Below, piece by piece: positions 5,066-22,457 of a stretch of DNA of 28,749 bases (positions within the stretch are counted from its first letter, which is position 1; each line of letters starts with the position of its first letter). The notes beneath the pieces were generated by a model, which searched no databases, had not been told where the DNA came from, and worked only from the letters and a program-made list of their open reading frames with translations. Source of the stretch: a virus; IMG/VR virus record IMGVR_UViG_3300040801_001873, positions 1 to 28,749 of that record, one strand, 5' to 3'. A program made the position numbers and the translations under genes.

Positions 5066-5512
5066 ATGCTAAAGTTTTTAAAACCGAGTGATTTTCAAAT
5101 GAAAATAAAAGACAATGTGTTTGCCGATATATTGGACGCCGACGAAACAGGAGTAGGACCTGAAAACGAAAAACTACAATTAGCAGAGAGACAAGCCATT
5201 GAGATGATGGACTCTTATATCGGTAATGTATATGATATGGAGTTTATGTTATCACGAAAAGACGAAGAGAGAAACATTGTTATTATAGATATATTAACAA
5301 CTTTGGTAGTTTATTTACTATTCCAAAGAACTACAATTGATATAATACCTGAACAAAGACTTACAGATTATGAGAATAAGATACAAACAATCAAAGATTT
5401 AAGAGACGGTAAGATTAATATAAAGTCACCTAAGAAAAATATAAATTATGACAACAGGTTACAAAATTTATATTCAAATAACATAAATACAATAAACGAT
5501 TGGGACTACTAA
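5066..5512 (+). CDS. Mu gp36-like protein (DUF1320 family), head completion/neck
   Basis: This 148-residue protein fits the Mu gp36 family in size and pattern. It opens with a FLKPSDF... start like the family's 'FLTPEEL'. A central helical region carries ERNIVIIDILTTLVVYLLFQR, matching the family's conserved 'hydrophobic helix then xYHL' region. An IPEQRLTDYENKIQTIKDLRDGKINI tail closely resembles the family's 'VPEKIxDRYDRAIxWLExVxxGK'. In Mu-like phages it is a virion protein at the head-tail junction. Here it precedes the portal gene, not the usual place after the capsid gene. The start follows a phage promoter. Confidence 0.72.
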   Translation: MLKFLKPSDFQMKIKDNVFADILDADETGVGPENEKLQLAERQAIEMMDSYIGNVYDMEFMLSRKDEERNIVIIDILTTLVVYLLFQRTTIDIIPEQRLTDYENKIQTIKDLRDGKINIKSPKKNINYDNRLQNLYSNNINTINDWDY

Positions 5513-5528
5513 AATATAATAACTAAAT

Positions 5529-6752
5529 ATGAATTTATTAGGATTTAACATAAGTAAGTTAAACAGAACTACTGAAGATAACACAAAGAAAACTAAGGAG
5601 TTAAAAAACGCTATAGCCGCCGAATATCATTATAGAGTTAAAAAAACTCTAAAAGATTGGGATATGGCTATGTATCAGGCAAAACATCCTGAAAAAGGAA
5701 TGAGAGATTACTCTTATTTACAATTCATATACGACCAGATGATGGACGACGGAACCATTTCAGGAGCAATAGAAAATAGAATTAGATCATCAATACAATC
5801 ATCTTTTAATGTATATAGAGGCGACGACATAACAGACGAATATTATAGCTTCTTTAATAAACCCTGGTTTTATGATTTTTGTACTCTTTTCTTAGAGAGT
5901 AAGTATTACGGTTATTCTGTAATAGAATTAGGCGATTATATAAACGAATCAATAGACGGAGCCGAGTTGATACAGAGACATAATTGTGTCCCTGAATATT
6001 ATTATGTCAGAAAAGGTGTTATGATAGACAAAGACAAACACATATATTACAAAGATAACAAATTTATATTTAATGTAATAGATAAGTCATTAGGGCTACT
6101 AAATAAATTGGTACCTTTATGGATATATAAGAAAGAAGCAATAAAAGCATGGGCTATTTACGCTGAAAAGTTCGGAACGCCTGTTAGAATAGGTAGGACA
6201 CCTTCTAACGACGATATACAAAGGAGAGAATTGTTAGACTATTTAAAGAATTTAGGACAAAGTAGTTCAATAGTTTTGAATATGGAGGAACAGATAGAGT
6301 TTCTACAAACACAAAACTCTGACAGTTATAATGTTTATGAAAGGTTGATTAAACTTATCAATGAAGAGATAAAAAAGACAATTATAGGTTCAACTATGAC
6401 CATGGACGATGGTTCGTCTTATTCACAATCTAAGACACACGAAAACACTTTTAGATTAAGAGTAAATAGTGATATAAAAGACTTACAATTTTTCTTAAAT
6501 ATGGAACTTTTACCAAGGCTACAAGAGTTAAGTTTCTTAAAGAATGATGATATACATATAGAGTTTGATTTAGGAGAGAAATTAAGTCTAAAAGAAAGAA
6601 GCGCCTTTGATATAGAATTAATTAAAAATGGATATGAATTAGACCATCAGTACCTTATAAATACATATGATACTGAAATATCTAGTAAAAAAGAGAAACC
6701 TAACCCTTTTGAATTTAAAAAAGAGAAAAATGATGATAAAAAAGAAGAATAG
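5529..6752 (+). CDS. Portal protein (Mu gp29-like, DUF935 family)
   Basis: The portal is the dodecameric ring at one vertex through which DNA enters and leaves and to which the terminase docks. Seen: the family-typical DDGTISGAIENRIRSSIQ near residues 73-90; YYGYSVIELGDY at 127-137; and KEAIKAWAIYAEKFGTPVRIGRTPS at about 202-226, which matches the DUF935 signature (whole-protein 'WAxYxExFGxPxRIG'). The carboxyl end is Lys/Glu-rich (KKEKPNPFEFKKEKNDDKKEE). At 407 residues it is somewhat shorter than Mu gp29, as is common in Bacteroidota phages. The next gene starts four bases after the stop. Confidence 0.88.
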   Translation: MNLLGFNISKLNRTTEDNTKKTKELKNAIAAEYHYRVKKTLKDWDMAMYQAKHPEKGMRDYSYLQFIYDQMMDDGTISGAIENRIRSSIQSSFNVYRGDDITDEYYSFFNKPWFYDFCTLFLESKYYGYSVIELGDYINESIDGAELIQRHNCVPEYYYVRKGVMIDKDKHIYYKDNKFIFNVIDKSLGLLNKLVPLWIYKKEAIKAWAIYAEKFGTPVRIGRTPSNDDIQRRELLDYLKNLGQSSSIVLNMEEQIEFLQTQNSDSYNVYERLIKLINEEIKKTIIGSTMTMDDGSSYSQSKTHENTFRLRVNSDIKDLQFFLNMELLPRLQELSFLKNDDIHIEFDLGEKLSLKERSAFDIELIKNGYELDHQYLINTYDTEISSKKEKPNPFEFKKEKNDDKKEE

Positions 6753-6755
6753 AAA

Positions 6756-7442
6756 ATGACATGGACAGAATTACAACAGAATTTAGATAGAGCATATGGT
6801 TCATTTATAAACGATTATAAAACGACTGGTAGAATATCACAATCACAACTTTCTTTAATTGAGAATATACACGAGGAGTTCTTAACTGAAAGAGTTAAAA
6901 TGACTGGCTTTTCAAGACAAAGAGTTAAAAAGAATTTAGAGGAATTTACCAGTGCTAAAATGAAACGAATATTTGGTGAATTAAGTTCAATAGATGCAAC
7001 CCAATCCATAACAGATATTGAAAAGAATATGAGACATATATTCAAAAAGTATAACGATACATATCTAAAAGTTGAGACAGATATGTTAGTTAAGAACATA
7101 AGACAAGCACAATCATTAGATGAGTTATTGAATATGACTCCTAATTACTCTATTCAATGGGTTACGGTAGGAGATGAAAAAGTAAGAGACGAACATGCAG
7201 AATTAGAAGGACTTACATTACCAGCAAATGATGACTTTTGGCTTACTTATGGTATGCCTGGGACAGCACCAAATTGCCGATGTACATACAAAATAATAAG
7301 AGAAGAAAAAAATAATTCAGACCAATACTCACAAGGTATGGAGGATGTTAGACACGAAAAAGAAAAATTAGGACTTAAGAACCCATTACAAGATGGTGTG
7401 ATTTTTTCAAGGAATCATAACTATTTTAAAGCAGACAATTAA
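6756..7442 (+). CDS. Mu F-like / SPP1 gp7-like head morphogenesis protein
   Basis: This protein contains the phage MuF domain, a minor head protein bound to the portal. The signature is complete: W135-V-T-V-G-D140, R144, H147 (KVRDEHAELEG), then DDFW (159-162) and the closing CRC at 174-176 (PNCRCTY). The first 120 residues are helical and rich in Lys and Glu. The length of 228 residues indicates a stand-alone MuF domain with no toxin or other extension. It follows the portal gene by four bases, the order seen in Mu and SPP1. Confidence 0.88.
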   Translation: MTWTELQQNLDRAYGSFINDYKTTGRISQSQLSLIENIHEEFLTERVKMTGFSRQRVKKNLEEFTSAKMKRIFGELSSIDATQSITDIEKNMRHIFKKYNDTYLKVETDMLVKNIRQAQSLDELLNMTPNYSIQWVTVGDEKVRDEHAELEGLTLPANDDFWLTYGMPGTAPNCRCTYKIIREEKNNSDQYSQGMEDVRHEKEKLGLKNPLQDGVIFSRNHNYFKADN

Positions 7443-7447
7443 CAAAT

Positions 7448-7924
7448 ATGTATAAAGTGACATTTGATACAAAAGCATTAAACAAACTGACTACTAAACA
7501 AGTCATACCAGAAATGTATGATATAGGTTTAGAGATACAAAACTTTGTCAAAGAGAGATTTCTACAAGGCAATTGGCTAGATACTACACCTGAACCATGG
7601 AAACCTGTCGAGGGTAAGACAAGAACTCTGATAGAAAGTGGCAATCTATGGAATAGTATAAGAATAATGGGTATTACTAAATGGTCAGTCGAAACTGGTT
7701 CCGATTTACCTTATGCCGATATACATAATGAAGGAGGGACGATAAAAGTAACAGAGAAACAGCGTAAATACTTTTGGCGAAAATATAGCGAAACTAAGAA
7801 TCTTATGTGGAAGCATTTAGCATTAACAGATAAAATAAACATACCAAAAAGACAATTTATTGGCGAAAGTAGTGAATTAGTCAACAGAATAATGAAATTA
7901 ACAGATAAAAAAATTAAAGAATAA
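7448..7924 (+). CDS. Mu gpG-like virion morphogenesis protein (Phage_tail_S family)
   Basis: This 158-residue protein resembles the phage virion morphogenesis family that includes Mu gpG and P2 gpS (tail completion). Seen: a GNLWNSIRI stretch near residue 63, the family hallmark YADIHNEGGTI at about 89-99 ('A-x-IHNEGG'), and KRQFIGES near residue 137 ('PxRxFLG'). In P2 the relative finishes the tail end that joins the head. It follows the MuF gene as in Mu (F then G) and begins five bases after it. Confidence 0.85.
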   Translation: MYKVTFDTKALNKLTTKQVIPEMYDIGLEIQNFVKERFLQGNWLDTTPEPWKPVEGKTRTLIESGNLWNSIRIMGITKWSVETGSDLPYADIHNEGGTIKVTEKQRKYFWRKYSETKNLMWKHLALTDKINIPKRQFIGESSELVNRIMKLTDKKIKE

Positions 7925-7926
7925 AT

Positions 7927-9357
7927 ATGAGAAAATATATGTATCATTTAATCAAGTGGTTAATGAATAATAATGAATTAGGATTTAAACATTATGCCGA
8001 TTGGAATAACCAGATTTTCAATAACAGAAAAGACGAAGGTATAAGATATCCAGCAGTCTTTTTTCATATGCCTGATATACCTATTAATTATTTTCAACAA
8101 AGAGTGATGAATGGACTGATAGATTTTCAACTTTATGTGGCCACTGAAAAAGCAGCAGTCATTAGAGACGGAGACGAAACAGGAGAAAGAGGTTTAGACC
8201 ATGATATATTTGTGGAACAGGTTATAAATTCAATAGATGGTAAATGGGACGACGCACTAAAAGAACAAAGACCTGATATTGATAATGTTGATAGATACGC
8301 TGTCGGAACTATCGATATAACACATAGCCGAGTATTAGAAAGAATTAAGTCATTAAATTTAACACAATTAGAGGTAAGAGTTAGATATCTAGATATGACG
8401 CAATATGATATGAATAGCGAGGACACATTTGTAAATGATATACCAGTCACCATATCAATAGAAAGAGACGAAAAACCAGAATTAGATAAGATAAACTGGG
8501 AAAGAGAGTTTCATTATTATTCAGGAGAGTTCAACTATTCTGGATCAACAAACATACAATTGACCAATGACGAGAGAGATTATGTAATAATAGACGAAAA
8601 TGGAACACTTACTAAACTATCAGGAGATACTAATTATTTAACAGATGATACAGAAGGCAATATAAAGTTTTATACAATAGATGGCAAACTATCACAAATA
8701 ATACAAACAAGTGGCAAATTGATAGGTGATATAAACAATTTTAATAGTTTTTTAAAAAGAGTTTATATAGACGGGACAAGCGATATAATGGGCGATTTAA
8801 GTGGAATGACAATGAACCCGTATTTATTTAGAATAGAAGGAGAGAATACACTAACAGGTAATATAAAACACCTACCTACATTAGCAGAAAATATAATAAT
8901 AGGTGGTAATAACACATTATATGGCGATATAGAAGACCTAATAGAAGGTTCAAGAGGTATAAACATAAAAGGCAATAATACGATAAGAGGTGATTTAAGA
9001 AATACGAAATTGAATGTAGATTTTATTATATGGGGAGAGAATGAGATATTCGGAGATATAAGTGATTTAGAAAATAAGGTTCAAAGATTTGATATAAGAG
9101 GTAATAATAGAATAATGAATTATTCAGGAGACTTAGCATTGCGAATTGACATGATAGACTTCATATCTTTACCAGATGTTAATTTCGGTTTAAGTGAAAC
9201 AGAAGTAGATAATTTATTGATAGATATGTCAGTATTATTTACAGATTTCACACCAGGAACAATAAATATAAGTGGAAATAATGCTCCAAGAACCTCTAAT
9301 TCAGACACAGCAGTCACTATATTAGAAAGTTTAGGCTATACGGTAATAACTAATTAA
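7927..9357 (+). CDS. Head-tail joining (gp37-like) protein fused to a 22-residue repeat solenoid
   Basis: The first ~155 residues (YPAVFFHMP..., FQLYVATE..., LNLTQLEVRVRYLD) resemble the tail-completion/neck proteins found at this place in Mu-like Bacteroidota phages; this rests on position and weak similarity. After a linker come seven repeats of about 22 residues starting near 261, 283, 305, 327, 349, 370 and 392, each with the pattern G-N/E-N-x-I/L-x-G-D/N-I/L. This points to a beta-solenoid or leucine-rich-repeat-like rod. The last ~60 residues (LSETEVDNLLIDM...TINISGNNAPRTS...TAVTILESLGYTV) match a carboxyl cap that I know from other phage and BspA-like repeat proteins. The solenoid may decorate the neck or bind a surface. 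Starts two bases after the previous stop. Confidence 0.6.
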   Translation: MRKYMYHLIKWLMNNNELGFKHYADWNNQIFNNRKDEGIRYPAVFFHMPDIPINYFQQRVMNGLIDFQLYVATEKAAVIRDGDETGERGLDHDIFVEQVINSIDGKWDDALKEQRPDIDNVDRYAVGTIDITHSRVLERIKSLNLTQLEVRVRYLDMTQYDMNSEDTFVNDIPVTISIERDEKPELDKINWEREFHYYSGEFNYSGSTNIQLTNDERDYVIIDENGTLTKLSGDTNYLTDDTEGNIKFYTIDGKLSQIIQTSGKLIGDINNFNSFLKRVYIDGTSDIMGDLSGMTMNPYLFRIEGENTLTGNIKHLPTLAENIIIGGNNTLYGDIEDLIEGSRGINIKGNNTIRGDLRNTKLNVDFIIWGENEIFGDISDLENKVQRFDIRGNNRIMNYSGDLALRIDMIDFISLPDVNFGLSETEVDNLLIDMSVLFTDFTPGTINISGNNAPRTSNSDTAVTILESLGYTVITN

Positions 9358-9414: not shown

Positions 9415-10383
9415 ATGAAATTTATTTTAAGTGACGAATCAATAAACATGAAAGGATTTAGGGTCTTGACACAAGGTATAGACTACACAGAGTTTTTAAA
9501 TAACCCTGTTATGTTATATAATCATAATAGTGATAATGTTATTGGTAGGTGGTTAGATATAGCCATAGAAGGGGATAAATTAGTAGGTGTAGCAGAATTT
9601 GACGAGGACGACACAGAGGCACTTAAAATAAAGAAAAAAATTGAAAAAAATTATATAGGGGGGACATCTATTGGATTTAGAATATTAGAGAAAAAGACGA
9701 TTGACGGAGTTTTAACCGTCACTAAATGCGAATTGTCAGAGGTGTCTATCACAGCGTTACCTGCCAACAAATCAGCAGTAAAACTTTTCTATAAAGACGA
9801 ACAAGTAGATACTGAAAATATAGAACTATCATTAAAAGAGATAGATAAAAAAGAATATAACATTATGGAAAACAAAAGTTTATTTGAAAAATTGAACGTT
9901 GAAACAGACGAACAATTAAATGTTAAGATAGACGAGATGGTGAAAGAAACAGAAACTTTGAATTCTTTACTAAACGACACAAAAGAAGAGTTAAGTAAAA
10001 AGGACACAGAGATAGAAACTTTAAGCCAGACTATCAAAGACAAAGACGAAAAGATAGCATCTTATGAGGCTGAAAAAGAGGTTGATAAGTTAAATGCTTT
10101 AATCAACAAAGGAATCGAGGACGGTAAAATAACTGATAAACAAAAAGATATGTTCGAAGGACTTTCTTATGGACAAACAGAAAAAATCTTAAATAACTTA
10201 AAGTCAGTTAAAACCGAAAAGTTAAGTGATAAGATTGATACAATAGGTTCAGAAAGAGACAATTGGACTTTATCAGACTGGGATATAAAAGACCCAGAAG
10301 GTTTAAAAGAGTTAATGAGTAACGACCCTGAAAAATTTGAGCTTCTTTATAAGAAAGACAAAGGAACGAAAAATATATACTAA
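9415..10383 (+). CDS. Prohead maturation protease fused to scaffold (S78 family)
   Basis: Residues 1-130 are an HK97-type prohead protease. His37 lies in LYNHNSD, Ser85 in IGGTSIGF, and a supporting acidic segment is KCELSEVSITALPAN (104-118). Residues about 150-235 are Lys/Glu-rich with heptad-like character (ETLNSLLNDTKEELSKKDTEIETL...), as in capsid scaffolds, and the end (DWDIKDPEGLKELMSNDPEKFELLYKK) may bind the capsid protein. The protease would remove the scaffold during maturation. An internal ATG at 9865, in front of ENKSLFEKL, could give a free scaffold of 172 residues; its upstream sequence aagaatataacatt resembles other leaders here. The major capsid gene follows. Confidence 0.85.
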   Translation: MKFILSDESINMKGFRVLTQGIDYTEFLNNPVMLYNHNSDNVIGRWLDIAIEGDKLVGVAEFDEDDTEALKIKKKIEKNYIGGTSIGFRILEKKTIDGVLTVTKCELSEVSITALPANKSAVKLFYKDEQVDTENIELSLKEIDKKEYNIMENKSLFEKLNVETDEQLNVKIDEMVKETETLNSLLNDTKEELSKKDTEIETLSQTIKDKDEKIASYEAEKEVDKLNALINKGIEDGKITDKQKDMFEGLSYGQTEKILNNLKSVKTEKLSDKIDTIGSERDNWTLSDWDIKDPEGLKELMSNDPEKFELLYKKDKGTKNIY

Positions 10384-10423: not shown

Positions 10424-11356
10424 ATGAGTTTTCAAAATCAAGATGTATTCTCTGAATTATGGACAAAAGATATTCAAGAATACTTAAAAGCAGACAACAT
10501 TATCATAGCCAAAGCTTTGATAGACGACACTTACGTAAATAACTATAGAGTATATTTACCACAATCAGGAGGTGCTTCAACCGTCGTTAAAAACAGAGAC
10601 ACCACACCAGTAGCAGCTGAAACAAGAATAGATACTACTATCGATTATGTAGTTGATAATTTTACTACTACTCCAAGAAAAATTTTCTTACAAACAGAAG
10701 GTTCTTTCCCTACTTATGATAAACGAATGTCAATCGCCAGTGAGGATATGAATGTTTTGAGAGATATCGTTACTAAAGACGTGATTACTAAATGGATTAC
10801 CAATGGTGACGACAGCACTAACGTAAGAACATCTGGGTCAAGTAGAACGGCTATGGGAGCAAACCAAACAGGTAACAGAAGTAAATTGACTTTTGCTGAT
10901 GTATTAGAGGCTAAAAGAAAATTAGATGGACAGAATGTCCCTATGGCTGGACGAGTTTTACTATTAGATAGTGACTTAGCAACAGACTTAATTTCTGAAA
11001 CAGGTTCTCAATTTAACTATTCAGATACTTTGGCTAACAAAATTTCTACAGAAGGTTTCTTAGGAAAAGTAGCTGGTTTTGAGGTTTATATGAGGAGTGA
11101 AGTAGGTTACACATCAGGCGATACTGATGACACATTTAGAGAGTATGATGAAGACCATGACGATGCTGATAATAAAGTAGCAATCGCTTATCATCCATCT
11201 ATGGTTAGACGAGCATTATCTGGTGAAAAAGCATACTATGTAGCTAATCACCCATTATACTACGGAGACGTATTATCGTTTGGTGTTAATGCTGGTGGAA
11301 CATTATGTAGAAAAGATAAGAAAGGTTTCATTAGAATTATAGAGACTACTCCATAA
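10424..11356 (+). CDS. Major capsid protein
   Basis: This 310-residue protein follows the protease-scaffold gene and is the expected coat subunit with the HK97 fold. Seen: an amino end MSFQNQDVFSELWTKDIQEYLKADNI... without an obvious cleaved leader; a long central helix region (ASEDMNVLRDIVTKDVITKW); KLTFADVLEAKRKLDGQNVP, typical of the spine and axial region of these coats; and a closing PLYYGDVLSFGVNAGGTLCRKDKKGF. Codons appear more carefully chosen than in the unknown genes, with more GGT, GCT and AAC, as expected of a highly expressed gene. It is flanked by a hairpin and a strong terminator, so it has its own mRNA boundaries. Confidence 0.85.
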   Translation: MSFQNQDVFSELWTKDIQEYLKADNIIIAKALIDDTYVNNYRVYLPQSGGASTVVKNRDTTPVAAETRIDTTIDYVVDNFTTTPRKIFLQTEGSFPTYDKRMSIASEDMNVLRDIVTKDVITKWITNGDDSTNVRTSGSSRTAMGANQTGNRSKLTFADVLEAKRKLDGQNVPMAGRVLLLDSDLATDLISETGSQFNYSDTLANKISTEGFLGKVAGFEVYMRSEVGYTSGDTDDTFREYDEDHDDADNKVAIAYHPSMVRRALSGEKAYYVANHPLYYGDVLSFGVNAGGTLCRKDKKGFIRIIETTP

Positions 11357-11429: not shown

Positions 11430-12551
11430 ATGTTCGGAAAAGTAAATATAGGCATATTGAATGGTCAAATTGATAGAACCATACCTTCAGAGGACGGTAT
11501 ATCAGCCCTTTTGTCTTACAACAGCAACATAACTGATTTTTCAATCAAACGATATACTTCTATTTTTGATATAAATGATGACTGGGAAAGTACTGATTAT
11601 GATACTGAAAAGTATCAAGCAGGAGAGTTTTTTAAACAAAATCCAGGAGGTCAATTATGGTTAGCATTCGCGCCTACAGGAGCCACTTACGATTATACAG
11701 AGATATTAAAAGTAATGAGAGAAACCAATGGTGACGTTAAAAGGTTAGCAATTCTTTCAGGTTCTGATATAGGTACAATAGCGACTGATATAGCAGAGAT
11801 AAAAGCAAGACAAAACACTTTAGTAAGTGAGTTTAAACCTTACTACAATATATTGTTAGCGGTTGATATAGTAAGTTATGATATAGACCAATTAGCATCG
11901 ATAGACGATTTAAGAGACGGCACATATGACAATAGATGGCTAACGCCTGTTGTTGGAACAAACGCTGACGATGAAAATTGTATAGGTGCTTCATTAGGTA
12001 TAATTTCTAGACTATCAGTCGAGGAACACCCAGGACATGTAGGTCCTAATAATCTGACTACTAATTCAGCAGAATGGGACTCTCCTAAAATAGGAGAAAC
12101 AGACGTAGTAAATATTACCGAGGTTCTTTTAGAAGAATTACATAACAAAGGCTATTTATTCATAAGAAAATTTCCCGCTTTTGCAGGTTCTTATGTTTCA
12201 GGTTTCCCTGTAACTACTTCTTTAACAGATGATTTTAGAAAGGGTACAGACACAGCGATTATTTACAAAGCGTTTAGAGGGGTTTATTTAGATATGTTAC
12301 CTTTGGTAAATAGTAAAGTTAAACAAACAGACGGTGAAATGGACTCTGTATATAGAGATATATTCGAGGAAACTGCGAAAAGAACTCCTAATGGTATGTT
12401 AGATGCCGAAGAAATTTCAGACTTTAAAGTATTGATACCGAGAGGACAAGATGTTATAAGCACTGGAACGGTTAATATAAATATAGCGATTGTTCCTTAT
12501 GGACACGCCTCTGTTATAAACGTAACTTTAGGTTTAGCAGTAAAAGTATAA
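11430..12551 (+). CDS. Tail sheath protein (DUF2586 family)
   Basis: This is the contractile sheath subunit, which shortens to drive the tail tube through the host envelope. The 373-residue protein resembles DUF2586 proteins of Bacteroidota Mu-like phages: amino end VNIGILNGQIDRTIPSEDGISALL, a central WLTPVVGTNADDENCIGASLGIISRLSV region, then KGYLFIRKFPAFAGSYVSGFPVTT and RGVYLDMLPLVNSKV, and a compact carboxyl domain ending AIVPYGHASVINVTLGLAVKV. It is shorter than Mu gpL, as usual for this family. It comes after the capsid terminator and before the tube gene, the expected order for a myovirus. Confidence 0.82.
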   Translation: MFGKVNIGILNGQIDRTIPSEDGISALLSYNSNITDFSIKRYTSIFDINDDWESTDYDTEKYQAGEFFKQNPGGQLWLAFAPTGATYDYTEILKVMRETNGDVKRLAILSGSDIGTIATDIAEIKARQNTLVSEFKPYYNILLAVDIVSYDIDQLASIDDLRDGTYDNRWLTPVVGTNADDENCIGASLGIISRLSVEEHPGHVGPNNLTTNSAEWDSPKIGETDVVNITEVLLEELHNKGYLFIRKFPAFAGSYVSGFPVTTSLTDDFRKGTDTAIIYKAFRGVYLDMLPLVNSKVKQTDGEMDSVYRDIFEETAKRTPNGMLDAEEISDFKVLIPRGQDVISTGTVNINIAIVPYGHASVINVTLGLAVKV

Positions 12552-12559
12552 TCTAAAAA

Positions 12560-13735
12560 ATGAATTTTAATAATCATTATTCAAACAACTATAGAATAGT
12601 CCCTCATATAGATATATTGAAGGACTATTCTCTTTCTTTTATAGAAGGAGAACCAGTAAGAGCAAAGATAGACCATGATAAAAATGATATATTTAATTAT
12701 GAGAATATTGAATGTTCTTTTTATTGCGATACCACAAGGGTTCAAACCGAAACAGGATTGACAATAAATTACTTTAATCATTTTGATTTAACTAACGACG
12801 GTTTAAATGATTGGGGATTTTCTGGTATGACAATAGAGGATAACGAATTGATAAACATTTCTCCTGAAATATTCGAAATTTATAAGAATGAAGACTATTA
12901 TAAAGATATGTATGAAAAACAACATAACCTTATTTTTAATGTTACCGAATTAACAGGAAATACAGAATTAAACGTAGGGTCTGCTGCTAAAAAATACGAA
13001 GAGCCTATCAAAGGGTTCATTTCACCAGATGGGCTATATTTTGTCGACGAAAGCGGACAGACTTTTTATTATGTCGATGCCTCCAATGAAATTACAGGCG
13101 TTACAGAATTAACAGGTGTTACAGAAGGAGAACCTTTTTATATCGATGGAGAAATGGCTGGCTGGCTTTTTGAAGGTACATTTTACTTTATAAACGACGA
13201 TAATTATGTATGGTTATCAGGAGGAACAAAAGTCTATGAGGAGATAGATACAACACCTTATAAAAACACGTTAGATATGATTGATTACGAGACGGTTATA
13301 GTTAATAGTGATGATATATTATATACACCATTTTATACGAAACAATATACATGGTATTATAAAAATAGAGGAACCATAACACAAACAGGAAATACAACTA
13401 TCCATTTTGAAAATCATTTATTTAACGACGACAACGACTATGAACAAACAGGTTTAGTATTATGGACAGAAGAAACAGAACAAAATTATTTTATAAAAAT
13501 CGATAGTATTAAAGGTTATTATGGTCCCATTAGACAAGAAAGTGGTGAGGAGGAAATAAATAATTTAATATATACAGATAGAGAAAATAAGATAAACATA
13601 AATATAACAGACGATACAATATACTGGGTTCCAGGTAATTTGTTAGTCAATATAAAATTATGGAATACTAACGGTGATAATAAAGAATATAATTACAGGT
13701 TAGGAGATTTAAGAAAATCATTGCGAAAGCGATAA
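12560..13735 (+). CDS. Hypothetical structural protein between sheath and tube, 391 aa
   Basis: I do not recognise this protein. It is acidic, rich in Asn, Tyr, Thr and Gly, and looks all-beta. Three copies of a V/ITELTG motif (NVTELTGNTE, GVTELTGVTE and a near copy) lie near residues 127-190, and alternating FYYVD, FYIDG and FYFINDD strands follow. This suggests a tail decoration or adhesion-type fold. It lies between the sheath and tube genes, a slot that Mu leaves empty. The reading frame is clearly coding by composition and begins eight bases after the sheath stop. A terminator-like hairpin (12593-12631) lies inside its first 25 codons. Confidence 0.75.
   Translation: MNFNNHYSNNYRIVPHIDILKDYSLSFIEGEPVRAKIDHDKNDIFNYENIECSFYCDTTRVQTETGLTINYFNHFDLTNDGLNDWGFSGMTIEDNELINISPEIFEIYKNEDYYKDMYEKQHNLIFNVTELTGNTELNVGSAAKKYEEPIKGFISPDGLYFVDESGQTFYYVDASNEITGVTELTGVTEGEPFYIDGEMAGWLFEGTFYFINDDNYVWLSGGTKVYEEIDTTPYKNTLDMIDYETVIVNSDDILYTPFYTKQYTWYYKNRGTITQTGNTTIHFENHLFNDDNDYEQTGLVLWTEETEQNYFIKIDSIKGYYGPIRQESGEEEINNLIYTDRENKININITDDTIYWVPGNLLVNIKLWNTNGDNKEYNYRLGDLRKSLRKR
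12593..12631 (+). promoter_or_regulatory. Terminator-like hairpin inside the start of a gene, possible attenuator
   Basis: The perfect 10-bp arms agaatagtcc (12593-12602) and ggactattct (12622-12631) enclose 19 bases and are followed by ctttctttt. It lies 33 bases into the gene after the sheath. It may reduce transcription past the abundant sheath message or protect its 3' end. Confidence 0.45.
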
Positions 13736-19812: not shown

Positions 19813-21801
19813 ATGTCTAAACTATCAAGAACACAATTAAAGACTAAGAATAATAACTTAATTAAAGAAAATTTTAATCAAGAGATTACTGGTCCTATAC
19901 ACAATGAAATAAATGAAGACTTTATAGACAGTTTTCATACTGATGCTGATGCTTATACTAAAGCTCAAGTAGATAGTCTGATAGGCTCTACTACAATAGG
20001 GGAATTACTAGATGTAGAGTTTTTAGGTTTAGAAAATTATAACGTATTATCATATAATGCTGGCGTATGGAGTAATGAAAATATTGATGATAGATACTAC
20101 AGAAAAGACGAGGTATATAATTCTGGCGAAACTCTTACAGCAACAGAAATAGAAGATACTTTTTATAAAAAGACGGGTGGTTTAATAGACGGCACTGTTA
20201 CTATAAGTGGTAATTTAACCGTCCAAGGCACCGAAACAATAGTAAATACTGATAATTTGTATGTAAAAGACAATCTAATACTTTTGAATAGTGGCGAAAC
20301 TGGCACAGGCGTAAGCGCCGTAAGAGCCGGGGTTCAAATAGACAGAGGAACATTAGACGATTACCTTTTCATTTTTGATGAATTAAGTGGCTGGTTTAGA
20401 GTAGGACAAAGTGGTGAAACACAAGCAGTAGCAACAAGAGAAGACAGTCCAACAAACAATAGTATAATGATATGGGATGGAACTGAAAATAAATTAGTTT
20501 CAAGTGATATAACTAACATATCAACAGATTATACTTTAACTGGTAATGATACAAGTATATGGACAACAGGTGCCATTCAAGATTATGTAGGTGCAGAAAT
20601 AACATCGTTAAATATATCAAATTACTATAACAAAACAGAAAGTGATAATAGATATGTAGAGTTAGCTGGTGATACTATGACAGGTAGTTTAAGTTTAGGT
20701 TCAAGTTTATTTTTCACTGCCGGTAATCAAAGAATTCATTCAACTATAAATGGTTTAGTTATTAATTATAATCAAGGAGGTAATTTAAATTACTTTGGTG
20801 GTGGTACAGCAACTTTATTTCAATTAAATACAAGTGGACAAATGATATTAAACGGCACACAACCAGTTAATTCTATAAGTAATAATAGTGCAGATGCGGC
20901 AAATGTGAATGAATTATGGACAACAAGCGCTATTCAAGATTATGTAGGAAATGAGATAACATCTTTAAATATATCAAATTACTATAATAAAACTGAAAGC
21001 GACGATAGGTATTTATTAAAGAGTAACAATTTGAGCGATTTAACAAACACAACAACAGCAAGGAGTAATTTAGGTTTAGGTTCTATGGCGACACAAGATA
21101 GTATTTATTACTATAACAAGACAGAAACTGATAATAGGTATGTAGAGGTTGCCGGTGACACAATGACTGGTAGTTTGAATATAGATGGTAGATTAGATGT
21201 TAATAACTCTTTGTTAAGTTATATAGATTTAAATACGAGTACAAACGACGCGAGATGGCAATGTGGAGCAAATAGTAGTAGTATAGGATCAAATGATAGT
21301 AATATTGAGTTTATTGCGAGAGAAAATTTAAGCCCTTCCATTAGCGGTAACGCTGGTTATTTACAATTAAACGGTAATACAATTATAAACGGTATAGTCG
21401 AAACTTCTATATTGACGGCTTATGATGTTTATGATACTGATACAACATCAACTGGGGTTTTTTATTATGGTATTGATAGTAATTATACTAGTAGTATGGG
21501 TGGTGATGAACGCGCCTATAGGAAAATAAACTTATACGAAACAGGAGATAAAAAAATAAACATAGTATACGGTGGTTTAAATAGCGCAGGAGGAGTTTTC
21601 CCTAGTAATAAAAAAATAGAGTTTGAGATACCAATAGAAGCGCATAATACAATGAATTTAAATATATATAGTGGTTCAAATAGTATAATATGGTTATATG
21701 AAGATTTTGGAACAAGAGAGGTCGTAGATGGTGATAGATTTATTTTTTATTTTTATATACATTCTAATGAAATATACGCAAATTGGGTAAAAACACATTA
21801 A
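19813..21801 (+). CDS. Long tail fibre protein with repeated YYNKTESDNRY modules
   Basis: This 662-residue protein is a trimeric-fibre type, rich in Ser, Thr, Asn and Gly. The shaft carries repeated motifs typical of phage fibres: ADAYTKAQVDSLI near residue 55, DDRYYRKDEV near 95, and YYNKTESDNRYVELAGDTMTG near 271, repeated as YYNKTESDDRY (about 391) and YYNKTETDNRYVEVAGDTMTG (about 433). A GTVTISGNLTVQGTETI...LYVKDNLILLNSG region near 135-165 is another known fibre module. The end (IYSGSNSIIWLYEDFGTREVVDGDRFIFYFYIHS) is beta-rich and may trimerise or bind. It probably recognises the host surface. No self-cleaving chaperone motif was seen. Confidence 0.82.
   Translation: MSKLSRTQLKTKNNNLIKENFNQEITGPIHNEINEDFIDSFHTDADAYTKAQVDSLIGSTTIGELLDVEFLGLENYNVLSYNAGVWSNENIDDRYYRKDEVYNSGETLTATEIEDTFYKKTGGLIDGTVTISGNLTVQGTETIVNTDNLYVKDNLILLNSGETGTGVSAVRAGVQIDRGTLDDYLFIFDELSGWFRVGQSGETQAVATREDSPTNNSIMIWDGTENKLVSSDITNISTDYTLTGNDTSIWTTGAIQDYVGAEITSLNISNYYNKTESDNRYVELAGDTMTGSLSLGSSLFFTAGNQRIHSTINGLVINYNQGGNLNYFGGGTATLFQLNTSGQMILNGTQPVNSISNNSADAANVNELWTTSAIQDYVGNEITSLNISNYYNKTESDDRYLLKSNNLSDLTNTTTARSNLGLGSMATQDSIYYYNKTETDNRYVEVAGDTMTGSLNIDGRLDVNNSLLSYIDLNTSTNDARWQCGANSSSIGSNDSNIEFIARENLSPSISGNAGYLQLNGNTIINGIVETSILTAYDVYDTDTTSTGVFYYGIDSNYTSSMGGDERAYRKINLYETGDKKINIVYGGLNSAGGVFPSNKKIEFEIPIEAHNTMNLNIYSGSNSIIWLYEDFGTREVVDGDRFIFYFYIHSNEIYANWVKTH
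20559..21184 (+). repeat. Coding repeats in the tail fibre gene
   Basis: Units near 20559-20690 and 20917-21013 share long identical runs (for example attcaagattatgtagg and aaatatatcaaattactataa). A third partial unit lies at 21109-21184 with the same YYNKTE...TMTGSL coding. Such repeats allow the fibre shaft to lengthen or shorten by recombination. Confidence 0.7.
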
Positions 21802-21806
21802 AAAAT

Positions 21807-22457
21807 ATGAATTTTGAATACAACAATAGTAAATTAAAAGAAGACCTTCATTTATACTATAAAATGAGTGAGTTAAACCCTGTAAAAGATTATAATGGGA
21901 CAAACGATGCTAGCACAATTGTAGGTACGACACCAACTATATCGCCATATGCAATGGTTGATAAATGTTTACTTTTTAATAGCGGTAGAATAGTAGCAGA
22001 CGATGATAAGAATATAACAAATACAAATGATATAACAATAAGTGCATGGGTTAGACCTGATGTGGCTTCTTCATATAATTGTATAGCGCGAGCAGGAACA
22101 AATAATACGTATGGAGTGTTTTTTGGTAATGCTGCTGGTTCAAATTCTTTTTTTCACTTTGATTCTGGAACAAGAGGTAGTGCAGCTTCTGTTGGTTTAG
22201 GTGTCTTTCAACACGTTTCTTTTGTTTATGACCATTCAAGCACTAGCATGAAAATATATGTTAACGGAGAATTAAAATCAACAACAAGTAGGCAAATGGG
22301 TTATTTAAATCCAACTGCTTGGGTTATAGGTAGTGATGGTTCAAATCATTTTAACGGTAAGATAGATGAAATAATGATACATCATAGAGCATTAAGTGAT
22401 GACGAAATAGAAAAATTATATTTATATTATAATAGAATTAATAAAAGTTTTTATTAA
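21807..22457 (+). CDS. LamG/concanavalin A-like lectin protein, receptor-binding candidate
   Basis: The best start is the ATG at 21807 (MNFEYNNSKLKEDLHLYY), giving 216 residues; a TTG at 21783 also opens the frame but overlaps the fibre gene. The protein is a LamG-like jelly roll: LYYKMSELNPVKDYNGTNDAS opening, ITISAWVRPD, FQHVSFVYD...MKIYVNGEL, then the hallmark NGKIDEIMIHHRALSDDEIEKLY closing. These domains bind sugars. Lying right after the fibre gene and in the same transcript, it is probably a fibre tip or baseplate-attached sugar-binding protein that sets host range. Confidence 0.82.
   Translation: MNFEYNNSKLKEDLHLYYKMSELNPVKDYNGTNDASTIVGTTPTISPYAMVDKCLLFNSGRIVADDDKNITNTNDITISAWVRPDVASSYNCIARAGTNNTYGVFFGNAAGSNSFFHFDSGTRGSAASVGLGVFQHVSFVYDHSSTSMKIYVNGELKSTTSRQMGYLNPTAWVIGSDGSNHFNGKIDEIMIHHRALSDDEIEKLYLYYNRINKSFY

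Follow-up and report, generated by a model that had tools for sequence, protein, structure and literature searches.

A single gene of 476 aa (ORF at 7927..9357, + strand) among the structural genes of a Mu-like phage with a contractile tail joins a domain assigned by homology to the tail-completion/terminator proteins, a predicted LRR-like solenoid and a C-terminal cap. With moderate confidence, we read the capped LRR-like module as being displayed at the neck, on the terminator of a Mu-like Bacteroidota phage, where it would act as an accessory adhesin. The repeat and cap family is uncatalogued in the libraries and papers searched, and they likewise do not contain its combination with a tail terminator.

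Genome context and probable host

The window, which is the whole 28.7-kb virus record analysed here, carries first TerL, then a Mu Gp36-like head-tail adaptor (5066..5512; PF07030, E=5e-9; phrog_195), a Mu-type portal protein (5529..6752; PF06074, E=2.6e-68), a MuF-like minor head protein (6756..7442; PF04233, E=1.3e-11), a neck/virion morphogenesis protein (Phage_tail_S, Mu gpG-like; 7448..7924; PF05069, E=1.3e-6) and the 476-aa gene. The Phage_tail_S product, the immediate upstream neighbour, also matches phrog_26 "tail completion or Neck1" (E=1e-17). Further along are the prohead protease (9415..10383; PF04586, E=3.8e-13), the major capsid protein (10424..11356; phrog_267, E=3e-23), the DUF2586 contractile tail sheath (11430..12551; PF10758, E=2e-28; phrog_907), the tube, the tape measure, the baseplate hub, a tail fibre and a LamG lectin. 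All genes for which coordinates are given so far lie on the + strand.

The left end of the contig holds an Eco57I-type methylase gene (20-1117). A 391-aa protein without a family match is encoded between the sheath and tube genes (12560-13735), and may be a second virion decoration. The stretch 19813-22457 encodes a tail-fibre-like protein of 662 aa and, after it, a LamG/concanavalin-like lectin of 224 aa (PF13385, E=1e-25); this pair is more likely to be the main receptor-binding unit than the solenoid. By portal, the closest named relatives infect Flavobacterium, Bacteroides, Porphyromonas and Winogradskyella, so that the host is probably in Bacteroidota.

The fusion-gene region is also present in two contigs of sister samples, which are not biologically independent, aligning at 99.8% and 100%. 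Because the region recurs there, the fusion gene is not an assembly accident. Single-protein scans of IMG/VR with the portal and TerL returned the two sister contigs and nothing further.

Assignment of the N-terminal domain

Residues 1-165 (7927..8421, + strand) are assigned as a Mu-like/Winoviridae tail-completion (tail terminator) protein, based on synteny, a family HMM and hhalign. In the window, the gene starts directly after the Phage_tail_S gene, an order repeated in seven of the compared loci (L009-L012, L014, L016, L061). Both Peternella_1 and a Porphyromonas phage have the syntenic gene annotated as "tail completion". Psychrobacter phage Y8A, which carries a Mu-like annotation, has a Mu Gp37-like gene following its virion-morphogenesis gene; Mu Gp37 is the tail terminator of Mu. 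Against an HMM of the nine-member syntenic family, the N-terminal domain (residues 1-200) scored 24.2 bits (E=1.1e-6), compared with 5.7 bits for the best of 1000 shuffles, and the other window proteins never came out ahead of the shuffles. Aligned by hhalign, residues 17-164 matched the terminator family at 73.6% (E=2.9e-5), against 0.07% (E=0.69) for a control protein. Gene order, family HMM and hhalign together thus point to a tail-completion/terminator protein as the fusion partner, which makes more specific the neck-type, head-tail joining protein of the initial annotation.

Terminators of Winoviridae/Mu-like Bacteroidota phages, among them Peternella_1 gp29, lotta8-1 gp031, FPSV-S1 QCW20340 and those of Porphyromonas and Bacteroides phages, share with the window protein the slot after the Phage_tail_S gene and a homologous N-terminal domain. 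The nine compared are 144-199 aa long and all lack the solenoid and cap, whereas the window protein has both. It is thus about three times the usual size, as first estimated, and its C-terminal 300 residues are extra beyond the terminator domain.

Repeats, cap and predicted fold

Seven LRR-like repeats of 21-22 residues cover exactly residues 261-400 (8707..9126, + strand), where the initial annotation had placed them, as supported by autocorrelation, a unit HMM and predicted strands. Their motifs end in TSGKLIGDI (261-269), DGTSDIMGDL (282-291), EGENTLTGNI (304-313), GGNNTLYGDI (326-335), KGNNTIRGDL (348-357), WGENEIFGDI (369-378) and RGNNRIMNYS (391-400). The pattern G-N-N-x-I-x-G-D-I was thus proposed for repeats that are real, but in its literal form (G-N-N-x-I/L-x-G-D-I/L) it is found in two units only, and both end units of the array are degenerate. 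Within the "GD" element, a conserved Gly is at residues 267, 289, 311, 333, 355 and 376, with a spacing of 22, 22, 22, 22 and 21. BLOSUM autocorrelation of residues 228-410 had its maximum at lag 22 (z=5.7; reached by 0/1000 shuffles), with lesser peaks at lag 43-44. A unit HMM trained on other proteins only, leaving the window protein out, gave the latter 25.9 bits, with 7.2 for the top of 1000 shuffles.

The C-terminal cap spans residues 392-476 (SETEVDNLLIDM...INISGNNAPRTSNSDTAVTILESLGYTVIT; 9100..9354, + strand) and is supported by a cap HMM and AlphaFold. Built from 16 other proteins, with the window protein excluded, the cap HMM scored it at 66.1 bits (E=1.5e-19; top shuffle 13.1), and the cap is indeed one seen in other repeat proteins, as had been suggested. 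Between the terminator domain and the repeats is a linker (residues 166-260; 8422..8706, + strand), modelled with low confidence in both AlphaFold models. One alignment linked it to a PKD-like region of another contig (L043), and a degenerate PKD-like domain is possible there, although the PKD-profile score of the look-alike at residues 200-255 was no better than that of shuffled sequence. A free-standing solenoid made by an internal translation start was rejected, since no SD-preceded start was found in residues 166-400.

AlphaFold was run with an alignment of IMG/VR relatives, from which the PKD rows were excluded for the second model. Strands were predicted at a 22-residue spacing, starting near residues 278, 300, 322, 344, 365 and 387. 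The coils had a pLDDT of about 60-80, a moderate model quality, and the alpha/beta cap, with two helices and two strands, had about 72-94 over most of its length. No long coiled-coil helix was predicted in the C-terminal part. The leading PDB matches in Foldseek were LRR proteins (SDS22, the CroV FNIP LRR, TLR1-TLR2, BRI1 and LRRC8C), with weak E-values (best PDB E=0.03-0.12). The models describe residues 261-476 as an LRR-like beta-solenoid closed by an alpha/beta cap, in agreement with the solenoid first proposed and with moderate model confidence.

The repeat units read [FIV]xIxGxNx[IL], with the Asn one position later than in the classic LxxLxLxxNxL segment. In Pfam, the window protein had no LRR match, and one relative of the module reached 18.6 bits against LRR_4, under the cut-off of 27. 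Because of the shifted Asn, and because no curated LRR model passes, we call the repeats LRR-like. Membership in the FNIP/FGxxFN LRRs was ruled out, as the window protein has neither an FGxxFN motif in its sequence nor a Pfam FNIP match. Neither Pfam nor PHROGs gave an Ig-type domain in the window protein, Pfam gave no CBM, and no carbohydrate-binding domain of a known kind or aromatic patch was identified in it.

Relatives of the repeats and cap

No Pfam or PHROGs family covers the C-terminal repeats and cap. Searches by tblastn against 50,697 named phage records, with the whole protein, its C-terminal part and several relatives as queries, gave chance or fn3 matches only, and a PDB sequence search gave nothing beyond chance matches. 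A degenerate DNA pattern for GNNTIxGD was found in 18 stretches of IMG/VR, two of which came from the sister contigs. The remainder mostly encode LPxxLTxLxIxGNNTIxGDI-type repeats and a common C-terminal cap, often with a PKD-like "DWGDGT" domain preceding the repeats. Three pattern matches (L018, L020, L027) were dismissed as chance motifs, and in the sole match to a genome contig (L004, Omnitrophota), the aligned stretch was a spurious frame overlying a TatC-like gene. A scan of IMG/VR with the cap profile added further contigs with the module. Together, the two scans yielded about 20 contigs, besides those of this virus, that have both the repeats and the cap; the nearest relative (L042/L032) matched at 34% over residues 251-476.

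By the unit HMM, the number of recognised repeat units varies from about 2 to 15 per protein among these relatives. In the Dit position of L051 (4990-6330), a 446-aa protein carries the module; its gene comes right after the tape measure, with that of a large structural protein on the other side. Directly after a TMP_3 tape measure, a 1016-aa protein ends with a PKD-like domain, ~3 repeats and the cap (L043, 3286-6336). In L054, the module terminates a fibre-type protein of 756 aa, with a terminase-like gene nearby, and in L047 (3010-6333), a 1107-aa protein combines Fib_succ_major and fn3 domains with ~15 recognised solenoid units and is flanked by virion structural genes. The module is near the portal gene in L055 and L042. 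In L044, it is carried by a 231-aa protein whose gene has a protease-capsid fusion gene on one side and a weak match to a tape measure on the other; the fusion gene (182-2188) encodes head protease and major capsid protein as one chain of 668 aa. Two of the stretches, L049 and L056, belong to one 44-kb contig (IMGVR_UViG_3300025000_000182), with the module near both ends, both times on the reversed strand. Long, stalk-like PTPTxTPT low-complexity stems are ahead of the solenoid in L022, L019, L021, L023 and L026. A second tail terminator bearing the module was not among the contigs found. Given that unrelated phages have it in other structural places, the module looks like a reusable add-on among virion genes.

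Proposed function

Adhesion to the host surface or the surrounding matrix is the most likely use of the module, judging from the company that it keeps elsewhere, namely a fibre, a gene following the tape measure and other virion genes. Being optional, variable in length and borne by different virion chains, the module resembles the accessory adhesion modules of lactococcal 936 phages. LRR-type coils rise by about 0.5 nm each. Seven coils would thus measure ~3-4 nm (about 3.5 nm at this rise), and ~4-5 nm with the cap, compared with a 30-nm fibre; the "rods" and "whiskers" proposed initially are therefore overstated, and stubby arms are expected instead. At the neck, tail terminators assemble as hexamers (PMC12886913), so that six solenoids per virion would be expected. 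In the proposed mechanism, the terminator would form its hexameric ring, and six stubby arms of about 4-5 nm would project from the neck. By binding reversibly to glycans of the host surface, or to the matrix around it, the arms would be accessory adhesins that increase encounter or adsorption, with another protein as the main receptor-binding protein.

The main rival explanation gives the solenoid a structural role: as a clamp or spacer, it would pack on the top of the sheath or on the stopper ring and stabilise the joint, without an external ligand. Contractile-phage terminators can bear extra domains, as in phage 812, where the terminator forms a six-armed clamp that includes a beta-sandwich domain and separate decoration proteins reinforce the neck (PMC12886913). 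However, the module is also found in proteins of fibre type and in genes that follow the tape measure, where clamping of the neck is impossible, its copy number is variable, and the nine syntenic terminators manage without it. We consider a clamp unlikely.

Somewhat less likely still is a host-derived surface-protein domain, acquired through recombination and now tolerated without a strong function. Such an origin would fit the apparent secretion signal preceding the module in L044 and L045, a weak match, lying outside the repeats, to a plasmid sequence annotated as a BspA-family LRR surface protein, and a fusion gene known from one virus only. Against it, the frame is intact, the cap is strongly conserved, and the repeated presence of the module in virion gene blocks suggests selection. 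It is very improbable that the C-terminal part is an assembly-stage extension, chaperone-like or inhibitory and removed before maturation: the prohead protease gene does come next, but the module is also part of proteins encoded among tail genes, where processing by a head protease is not expected.

Beyond the accessory adhesin on this one terminator, the relatives allow a wider and more tentative reading, which we regard as a fair way from established. The module could be an uncatalogued and widespread adhesin cassette, LRR-like and capped, that shifts between virion genes (those for the tail terminator, the Dit-position protein, fibres and others) and varies in repeat number, and that has here turned a neck ring into a six-armed adhesion collar. 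If so, its service to Bacteroidota phages would be like that of Ig-like and CBM modules to other phages. Should the arms bind glycans, repeat number would be a testable dial for specificity or avidity. The repeat and cap profiles offer a handle for finding the family, and a simple DNA pattern already retrieves many contigs.

Comparison with known systems

The terminator, the LRR-like fold and the grafted accessory module each already have precedent. Domains for accessory adhesion at the neck or tail of phages are known mainly with CBM or Ig-like folds, in phages of Gram-positives and enterobacteria; the module would bring a different fold to the same architectural role, in Bacteroidota-type phages. 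Ig-like domains on phage virion proteins are optional and C-terminal, and weak accessory adhesion has been suggested for them. The window module is similarly an optional C-terminal domain on a structural protein, but it is a repeat solenoid instead of a beta-sandwich, and it needs no frameshift. Fibritin (wac) whiskers of T4-like phages also project from the neck; they are a separate trimeric coiled coil, whereas the solenoid is short and within the terminator chain.

The FNIP/FGxxFN LRRs of Cafeteria roenbergensis virus (PMC9525666; 7zal) are likewise viral LRRs of 22 residues with a shifted conserved Asn, and they gave a weak Foldseek match. The window module differs from them in lacking FGxxFN, in its cap and in its phage virion context. 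Lactococcal 936 phages have CBMs on the neck passage structure, the major tail protein and the evolved Dit, with binding assays (PMC6669499). These have CBM folds, their binding was determined with fusion assays, and the neck ones are on long coiled-coil fibres (PMC6669499), whereas the window module, a putative adhesin, is an LRR-like solenoid without a fibre. In both cases, an accessory domain is grafted on conserved neck or tail proteins, with a parallel placement at the neck and in the Dit position.
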